In this document: piece after piece, positions 17,517-21,005 of the stretch | Numbering within the stretch: position 1 is the stretch's first letter | Layout: the number at the start of each line of letters is the position of its first letter | NCBI GenBank assembly: GCA_963969365.1 | Contig: OZ017756.1 | Span: 496,001 to 560,000, forward strand | Length of the DNA stretch: 64,000 nt | Direction of reading: 5' to 3' | DNA from: Asterochloris sp. CNOR1 | Lineage: Eukaryota; Chlorophyta; Trebouxiophyceae; Trebouxiales; Trebouxiaceae | Position numbers and translations under genes: made by a program | The notes under the pieces: model-generated | The model's database searches: none | The model's input: only the letters and a program-made list of their open reading frames with translations | What the model was told of the DNA's origin: nothing

Positions 17517-20500
17517 ATGGCAAACAAGCAGAAGCATACGGTGAGGGCATCACTGCATGCATTGGGGAGGACTGTGGACACCTCTCAAGTGGCAGTGCTC
17601 TGATGCTGCAGGGAATACAGCTAGATCATCCAGTAGTTATTGATGCACTTGCCGGCGGCCTGGCAGGTGGGCTGGCTCTTACAGTGTGTGGTCGTTGCCT
17701 GAGCAGCAGTGCCAGTCGCAGCTGCTGTGTGCAGGTGGCATCACAGCAGTGTTTGTGTCCCCACTGGAAGTGCTGAAGACCAGACTGCAGACACAGGAGC
17801 TGAAGGGGCCTGACAGATATCAAGGCGGCTTCCACATCTATGGTGAGGGCCTCCGACCCCTGCCATTCACTGCTGCACCAGAGATACAAGCCATGGCTGG
17901 CTTTGCGGCTGCTTGGAGCCCTGCTTTGTGCATCCTTCAGCTGGGACCGGCCCAATCCTGTTTGGCAGATTCTGCTGCCTGCCCATGTCGTGGCCTACTT
18001 CCTGCACATACTACATTCATGGGCCTTTACTGTCAAGGCCTTGAGACCTAAACAGTCAGGCTCTTGTCATACCTCTCACGAGCCACCCTGCCAACGCTCA
18101 TGTGACCTCAGCACCTGGGCTGATGCAATCTTGCAGGCGGTCTGCAGCGCATTGTGCGCAGCGAGGGCGTGGGGGGCCTCTATCGCGGGCTTGGCCCCCA
18201 ATTCATGGCGCTGTTCCCCAACTGGGCGGTGAGTTCTCATGTGCACACTGCAGCCACATCCCTCCCCTTCGCGCAGACGTCTGCCTGGCAGTGCCACGCA
18301 CTGCCCCTCAACTGCACCAGCACATGCCTGTCCAGATCCTGCCCACAGACCTGCTCAATGTTGAGGTCTGCTGAGCCTTCAGCCATTGAGTGCCGAATTC
18401 TGCCCAGCACACCTATGATGGAGCTTATGCAATGTTCAGGGATGATCCTCTGCCCTGCTCACAACGCAATCAAGCCAGAATCTCACAAGCCTGTAGCCAG
18501 CATCTGCTCAAATTATGTGGCGCGCACAGCTGTGCGCATGTGTGTGCTGCCACAGCTGTGCAGGCTCCAAGCCTCTCCCCTGCGCACAAAGCAGCCTCTG
18601 CACTCTGCAAGTGTAAGCAGGCATGGAAGCACCTGTTGCATCACCACTCACATATCAGCCTCAGCCCTCTCGCAAATGTGAGCGGGCATGTCAACCCTGC
18701 TGCCCCTGCGCACAGGTGTACTTCACGGTGTACAACCGCCTGAAGGGGACACTGGGCAAGCGGCAAAGCCTGCCCCAGCCCATGGTGCACATGCTGTCTG
18801 CAGTCGGAGCAGGTGAGCGGGGTAACATAGCTATGCATCACATTGCACAGCATCCCCGCACTGCATCGTCGCACCAGCTCTGCGCTGGCAGGGAGATGTG
18901 CCTAAGAGCCTGCTGCCTGGCTTGCACATGCTTCCTGAGTTGGAGCAGCTGAGCATTGTGACATAGCTATGCATCTGATCGCACAGCATGCTTGCACTAC
19001 ACTGCAGCACCAGCACTTTGCTGGCAGGGGCGTGTGCCTGCCCCAGCCCATGGTGCACATGCTGTCTGCAGTCAGGGCAGTATCGGTGTGACACAGCTAT
19101 GCCTCAGATGGCACAGCATCTTTGCACTGCACCGCAGCACCATGCTCAGCGCTCCTCTTGCAGTCTGTTGGCTCCGGCCCTGGCGCAAACCGAACTGAGA
19201 CGTTGTCCCTGCTGCTCCCTGTCTGCACGTGCACCTACCTTCAATTTAGTCCACTCAACACCCAACACCCCCCGCCTGTACAGGCGCTGCCACATCAGTA
19301 GTCACCAACCCCCTATGGGTGGCCAAGACGCGCCTACAGACCCAGCACATGGGCAACCGTCCCGCAGGCCGGGAGATCTACCGTGGCACCATGCACTGCA
19401 TGTACAGCATTGCCCGTCGGGAGGGCGTTGGCGCACTCTGGAGGTGACTGGCTCTCAGGACTTGCTGTCTAGCTTGCTGCATGCATTGTTGGGTCACAAG
19501 ACATGGGGACCTCCATGCTGGCTTGTCCGCATTGGGGCTTGCCCTCGGGTGTGCAATCAGCAAGCTGCGTGGGCGGGCTGCCATGCTCTCTGGCATCTGC
19601 TAGACCTGCTGCAGCGCAGCAGTGCAGTTGCCTTCACAACACAGCATGCACACCGTTACGATGTGGGCAGAGCAGTGCACCAGCCCCTCAGCACCCATCT
19701 GATTAGCCTTGATCAGCCCTGATCAGCCAGCGTCAGTGTGTGCTCCCCCTGCAGTGGGATGGGTGCCTCCATGGTTGGCCTGGTGCACGTGGCTGTGCAG
19801 TTCCCATGCTACGAGAAGCTCAAGCAGCTTCTGTCGGAGCGGCGTGAGCGCATCAGCCACACCAGGGAGCTCCAGCCAGTGGACCTGATCCTGGCTTCAG
19901 CCCTGTCCAAGGTGGGAGCATGGCTTAGGGGCAGAGCAGCTCCGCTGCAGTACTGTGCACAGGGGGCAGCATACTGGCTGGCAGGGGGTTGGGCTGGGCT
20001 GGGGTGCAGGGAGCCCACTGGTCGGTGAGTCAGGCTGCTGCATCCCAGTCATGTGCCCTGCCTGCCTGCCCCCCGCTGCCAGCAATGTGGGTTGCTGCCT
20101 GCTGCAGTGGCTTCGCGGCCTGCTTGCTGGGGCCGGTGCACTGCGCAGTGCAGCTGCCGCTGTACCAGGCTGTGAGGCATGCCCTGTGGGCCCAGAGGCA
20201 GCGCCAGCAGCACCCCCTAGCCATGCCCACCACCAGCCCCCTTGCCCTGGCCTTACAGGAGGACCGGCCCACGTACAGCGTCACAGACATCGTGCTCGCG
20301 GCCTCTGCAGCCACTGTACGCCCTGCACCCATGCCCTGCTGTGCTGGTGCATCATGGGGCTGACTCTGCTGCTTGGGATGTGGCCCATTCAGAGAGGGCA
20401 TCATGCACATGCCCTTGATGTGCTCCTGAGCCTCCATTCCCTGCTCGAGGCTCATCGTCCCCTCTCACACTATGTCAATGGCCACACTGCACAGTTCCGT

Positions 20501-21005
20501 ATTTAGTATGTGTGTATGTGTAGTGTCGGGGCCCCTCGCCAGAATTGAGCAAAACCTGTGTGGCTGCAGGCCGTGGCCAGCACAGTTGCCTACCCACATG
20601 AATTGATTAGGTATGACTGCACTTGGTCACAAGCCTACTCTTTGTCAACAGCAGTGAGCCCATGTTTGGCCCTTTGGTGGTGTATCCGACAAATACTCCT
20701 CTGCAGGTCTCAAATGCACGTAGCTGGTCTGGGACCCATTCGGGGCCTCAAAGAGATCACACTTAGGATATATAGGGAGCAGGGCATCAAGGGCCTTTAT
20801 GCAGGCAAGCGGTTAGAGGTTTCACCTTGATGCTGAGCCCTGATGCCTGCCATCTGTGCCGCCACATGGGTGACCTGCTGCAGGTTGGTCTGTCAACATT
20901 GTTCGCACCATTCCTGCGGCCGCAGTCACCTTCACCTCATTTGAGCTCATTTCCAGATTCTTGCATAGATTGGCAGAGAAACAGCGTCAGCAGCAGCCAG
21001 ATTAG
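17517..21005 (+). CDS. Mitochondrial carrier family protein, NDT-type NAD/nucleotide transporter
   Basis: This six-helix organelle inner-membrane carrier most resembles plant NDT NAD+ carriers. Exons: 17517-17540, 17612-17666, 17735-17842, 18137-18228, 18716-18812, 19284-19443, then 19755-19911 or 20108-20315, then 20570-20610, 20707-20804 and 20884-21005 (stop TAG). All phases agree. The three carrier signatures are PLEVLKTR, PLWVAKTR and YPHELIR; the PLW form of the second is typical of the NDT group. Family blocks LYRGLGPQFMALFPNWAVYF and NIVRTIPAAAVTFTSFE are intact. With the first alternative exon the product is 317 residues, normal for the family; with the second it is 334. The intron after 20804 starts with GC and is needed to give the YAGWSVNIVRT motif. 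Whether it sits in mitochondria, plastids or peroxisomes, and its exact substrate, cannot be told. Confidence 0.93.
18769..19160 (+). repeat. Three-fold tandem repeat made from an exon end and its intron start
   Basis: The last part of carrier exon 18716-18812 plus the following intron is repeated. Bases 18769-18805 recur without change at 19037-19073. A more decayed middle copy lies at about 18910-18950, with its intron-type tail at 18955-19030. The tails share catagctatgca-like and cacagcat words. The copies lack a working donor, so they look like non-coding remnants. Confidence 0.85.
20108..20315 (+). other. Alternative version of the H4 exon of the carrier gene
   Basis: This exon lies 196 bp after exon 19755-19911 and encodes a diverged copy of the same segment. 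SGFAACLLGPVHCAVQLPLY matches SGMGASMVGLVHVAVQFPCY of the first version. It has a ctgcag acceptor, a gtacgc donor and no stop. It enters with one base completing AG-T (Ser) and leaves in phase 0, exactly like its partner. Its linker between helices 4 and 5 is 17 residues longer. Using both exons in series would shift the frame, since each is 1 modulo 3 in length. Confidence 0.85.

Follow-up and report, generated by a model that had tools for sequence, protein, structure and literature searches.

The window, a stretch of 64,000 nucleotides from Asterochloris sp. CNOR1 (contig OZ017756.1 of a 56.4 Mb genome assembly in 21 contigs), contains a carrier gene of the PF00153 family at positions 17517–21005 on the + strand. 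Its mRNA is composed of ten exons, with either 6a or 6b in the seventh place. Exon 0 (17517–17540) carries the start codon, encodes MANKQKHT and is directly followed by gtgagg. This peptide agrees with the N-terminus of P0001, a gene model from Asterochloris (JGI Astpho2) that is near-identical to isoform A and uses 6a. The junction of exon 1 (17612–17666) is taken from P0001, and its translation is open. Exons 2 (17735–17842), 3 (18137–18228) and 4 (18716–18812) were placed by frame check and spliced alignment. Exon 5 (19284–19443) ends in phase 2 (AG) at the donor GAG/gtgact. It is followed by exon 6a (19755–19911), exon 6b (20108–20315), exon 7 (20570–20610), exon 8 (20707–20804) and exon 9 (20884–21005), which ends with the stop codon TAG. 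The acceptor of exon 7 is common to 6a and 6b and lies in phase 0. Exons 8 and 9 are separated by a GC-AG intron (20805–20883).

Our own spliced aligner, given the homologue P0002 (62% identical to isoform A) and no exon coordinates, returned eight introns between exons 1 and 9 with 6a used, and these agree with the introns of the gene from exon 1 on. The P0001 model leaves out exon 8 and is out of frame at its end; its C-terminus is therefore probably wrong.

Use of 6a gives isoform A (954 nt including the stop, 317 residues), and use of 6b gives isoform B (1005 nt, 334 residues), confirming the 17-residue difference reported in the first-pass annotation. Both isoforms contain three Mito_carr stretches, with scores of 232.5 and 217.4 bits, respectively, and belong to PF00153. 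Among the best 120 of 4192 homologues, P0001 is listed as 100% identical over 76% of isoform A, with at least one residue differing on sight, and the other 119 are 38–63% identical. The next best after P0001 reach 62–63% among the matches listed. P0002–P0005 form one group, 60–63% identical to isoform A. The Trebouxia and Myrmecia proteins among the matches listed, which are about 50% identical, fall with the C14 paralogue of the same genome, not with P0002–P0005. Some homologues are named NAD transporter or folate transporter by their sources. The gene would belong to an NAD/folate-like branch within the family, and going by these names NAD+ and folate are candidate substrates. Ten distinct chains of solved structures match isoform A, the best being an uncoupling protein (2lck).

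Exons 6a and 6b are 157 and 208 nt long, respectively, and both lengths are 1 modulo 3. Each exon is preceded by ctgcag and starts with TGG, the T completing a serine codon with the AG of exon 5. Both exit in phase 0 into 20570–20610. In addition to helix 4 and the helix 4–5 linker, each encodes the first part of helix 5, as far as the conserved SK (AT in 6b). The core VHxAVQxP is found in 6a and in 6b. The coordinates, the lengths and the shared entry and exit phases on which a mutually exclusive pair had been proposed all check in the sequence, as does the retention of the core.

Joining 6a to 6b, or skipping both, shifts the frame and leads to a premature stop inside exon 7. Both outcomes are non-productive, as required of mutually exclusive exons, and the earlier claim that only one exon works at a time is borne out. 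In either case two exon junctions lie downstream of the exon 7 stop, and such transcripts would be likely targets of mRNA surveillance. The joint outcome could serve a regulatory (poison) exon, in which 6b is included beside 6a and lowers expression through the exon 7 stop. We consider such a role improbable: a carrier-like frame would be superfluous in a poison exon, yet 6b retains its family HMM score and the phases with which it could replace 6a.

An excerpt of PMC5740500 lists sequence criteria for mutually exclusive exons: adjacency and similarity, the same frame, the absence of a stop, a length difference of up to 60 nt in multiples of three, and GT-AG borders. In frame, borders, length difference and residue identity, 6a and 6b agree with this list. 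Their frames are open, their borders are GT-AG, they differ by 51 nt, and 20 of 53 aligned residues are identical. The same paper reports a frame clash on joint inclusion for 20 (71%) of the genes with validated pairs in one comparison set, and the frames of 6a and 6b also clash when included together.

The global alignment that gives the 20 identical residues scores 69, where 2000 shuffles average −18 and reach at most 15. In a local alignment the BLOSUM62 score is 80, and none of 2000 shuffles scored above 47. These alignments identify 6b as a genuine duplicate of 6a, diverged and 17 residues longer. A genome search with the 6b peptide plus the exon-7 tail matched 6b itself, weakly 6a (E 0.014), and nothing else. 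The introns around 6a and 6b show no convincing similarity beyond a trivial overlap of the two query stretches. In a tree built from 52 of 77 columns of the exon-6 peptides, 6b lies on a very long branch beside P0040. Groupings of 6b with 6a, with 6a and P0004, and with 6a and P0002–P0005 give p-AU values of 0.28, 0.31, and 0.28, respectively, and none is rejected. The tree thus neither places 6b nor dates the duplication.

6b seems to have been kept in the past as protein code. A family HMM that excludes 6a, 6b, and P0001 and is built from 104 distinct homologue segments gives 32.7 bits for 6b and 75.6 bits for 6a. In 48 ungapped codons, 6a and 6b are identical at 25 first, 30 second, and 21 third positions. 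Neutral divergence was simulated by evolving 6a on two branches for equal time, one restricted to silent changes and the other free, in 14 settings (two substitution schemes by seven times) of 4000 runs each. At most 5 of the 4000 neutral runs in any setting combined a third-position identity of at most 21 of 48 with an HMM score of at least 32.7 bits, in a simulation that starts from the modern 6a rather than the ancestor and leaves out indels. At codon positions 1 and 2 together, 55 of 96 bases are identical, which is what the neutral runs average at matching time (0.57). The case for selection is therefore which positions were kept, not overall identity. With a codon usage table trained on two genes, the in-frame score of 6b is higher than those of the two remaining sense frames, and 0.33% of 1515 overlapping intron windows score as high; one antisense frame scores above the sense frame and one equals it.

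An open frame of this length is not rare by itself, surviving in about 20% of neutral runs at matching time, and 6b might thus be a chance frame or an assembly artefact. Its homology to 6a, far beyond shuffles, and a full-length 6b frame on another public contig (P0121), which is 90% identical and has a single additional codon, speak against this. We regard this explanation as refuted, and the likelihood left to it is very slight.

Several features suggest that constraint on 6b is now weak or that the exon is fading. First, at the columns where at least 95% of the 104 distinct homologue segments share one residue, 6a keeps 13 of 13 and 6b keeps 7 of 13. Three residues that every one of the 104 segments shares are altered in 6b: V in HV, E in YE, and K in SK. 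In the six altered columns, the L, R, and A of 6b each occur in a few homologues, and the C, Q, and T in 0 of 104. At a site occupied by I, V, or L in 104 of 104 segments, the 6b of the window carries P, and P0122, a related sequence described below, has Q at a G that is invariant in 104 of 104. The 6b residues HC, YQ, and AT are absent from all 119 listed homologues other than P0001, NAD/folate-type carriers of green algae and plants, when aligned over exon 6. In mitochondrial carriers, helix 4 ends with the motif [FY][DE]xx[KR]. Isoform A has YEKLK at this position. Isoform B departs from the motif with YQAVR in the window, and P0122 likewise has YQ, but P0121 has YEAVR.

Second, the 6b donor (ACT/gtacgc, 20313–20321) is weak. 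It scores −0.9 bits, below all 16 reference donors (0.08 to 12.38), a small set drawn from the carrier gene and its paralogue with each site left out in turn. The 6a donor scores 7.1 bits. Among 112 intronic decoy GTs, 47% score as high as the 6b donor.

These features would fit a relic, that is, a once-used exon that is now decaying, with its weak donor passed over and the gene making isoform A only. That P0001, the sole gene model found for the genus, uses the family-typical 6a is also in line with a relic. No spliced isoform-B protein was found among 316 candidates sharing words with isoform B residues 165–260; the one match, P0001, carries 6a. This result says little, because the matches listed for isoform A include no other sequence of the genus than P0001, itself a gene model. 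In addition, no cDNA of the genus came to light for either isoform. RNA-seq with 156 million reads from fungus and alga is reported in PMC6652019, and PMC12542154 mentions four published Asterochloris genomes in addition to its own. We give the relic a considerable chance, though clearly less than an even one. Part of the evidence from related sequences runs the other way.

A search with the 6b open frame returned three proteins at E up to 1 among 37 candidates: P0121, P0122, and P0123. P0122 and P0123 come from contigs of identical listed length (1,091,504) and represent two overlapping frames of a single copy; P0122 represents two member sequences, of which one was used in the comparison. 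The 6b frame of this copy is broken by a one-base deletion, as expected of a relic. The deletion, read from the predicted proteins of that contig, falls in a run of C, however, and is possibly an assembly error. The frame is open in the window and in P0121. The border residues at the acceptor (Ser) and the donor (Val, GTN) are identical in the window, P0121, and P0122/P0123, and the splice borders of 6b thus look to have been kept in both related sequences. Scans for relatives of P0121 in viral contigs and of P0001 in prokaryote contigs found none.

6b has also changed less than its flanking introns, read alike as protein. Between the window and P0121, 6b differs at 6 of 70 residues and the introns at 10 of 66 (two-sided p 0.29, non-significant). 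Between the window and P0122/P0123, the differences are 6 of 69, counting in-frame residues only, and 20 of 89 (p 0.029). The pooled counts are 12 of 139 for 6b and 30 of 155 for the introns (two-sided p 0.012), in a test that reads with frame shifts allowed and in which the window sequence is common to both comparisons. Frame-shifting indels number 0 (P0121) and 1 (P0122/P0123) in 6b and 4 and 5 in the introns, or 1 against 9 when pooled. The difference in residue changes, which counts against a relic, is significant only for P0122/P0123 and for the pooled counts.

Drawing on the duplication, the phases and frame logic, the signs of past protein selection, and the presence of 6b in two related sequences, all of which the analysis shows, we favor a pair of the mutually exclusive type, with nearly an even chance of being right. 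Exon 6 would have been tandem-duplicated in one NAD/folate-like carrier gene. 6a would be the default exon, and 6b, as a minor or fading alternative, could only replace it, because both or neither shifts the frame into the exon 7 stop. The first-pass reading of mutually exclusive exons is upheld in part: the anatomy of the pair and the traces of selection speak for it, and the signs that constraint on 6b may be fading weaken it.

Exclusion would be achieved by the reading frame and by competition of the strong 6a donor with the weak 6b donor, with no very short intron involved. Steric exclusion is unlikely as the switch, because the intron between 6a and 6b, at 196 nt, is longer than the gene's shortest intron (68 nt). 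Intron pairing is likewise unsupported: the duplex energies of three intron pairs were no stronger than those of 200 shuffles each (z +0.2 to +1.2), in a coarse test made without comparative alignment. 6b may be spliced in at a low level or under some condition. Isoform B would then be a carrier whose helix 4 is altered and whose linker is longer, and it would presumably transport something; the substrate-facing surfaces may differ between the isoforms. A bolder proposal, which we think unlikely, is that the lichen photobiont switches carrier by its choice of exon 6, isoform B with its HC, YQ, and AT having a changed substrate or gating, perhaps linked to symbiosis or drying. If 6b is used, one algal gene produces two carriers differing in one transport helix, and the unusually diverged pair offers a clean case for the role of helix 4 in substrate choice or gating. 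If it is unused, the locus may capture the loss of an alternative exon inside a single genus.

Mutually exclusive exons are already known in a carrier and in a green alga. The human mitochondrial phosphate carrier gene SLC25A3 is described in the excerpt of PMC5740500 as having mutually exclusive exons with an expression switch. It is likewise a carrier-family gene, but it encodes another carrier in another lineage, and its exon use is proven, whereas that of 6b is putative. In the green alga Volvox carteri, exons 4 and 5 of cyn23 are also adjacent and similar, and both variants were detected by RT-PCR, according to an excerpt of PMC4378016. The cyn23 exons, from a cyclophilin-related gene, are equal in length (106 nt) and differ by 13 residue changes, whereas 6a and 6b differ by 51 nt, share 20 of 53 residues, and are known from sequence. 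The arrangement had been called rare for algae, a claim that the cyn23 pair tempers. 6a and 6b would be a candidate pair unusual for its divergence and unequal length.

The C14 paralogue (904500–910000 in the same genome) resembles the carrier gene in having a phase-2 intron within the Ser of SG. It differs in lacking an intron at SK, and its own helix 4 is split by another intron.

A further duplicated segment lies upstream of the pair. At 19036–19080, intron 4 holds a 96% identical copy of the last 45 nt of exon 4 (18768–18812). This copy lies in a 136-nt tandem array (2.8 copies). The intron 4 copy looks like a dead partial exon duplicate of the same gene, because a GT donor is absent there.
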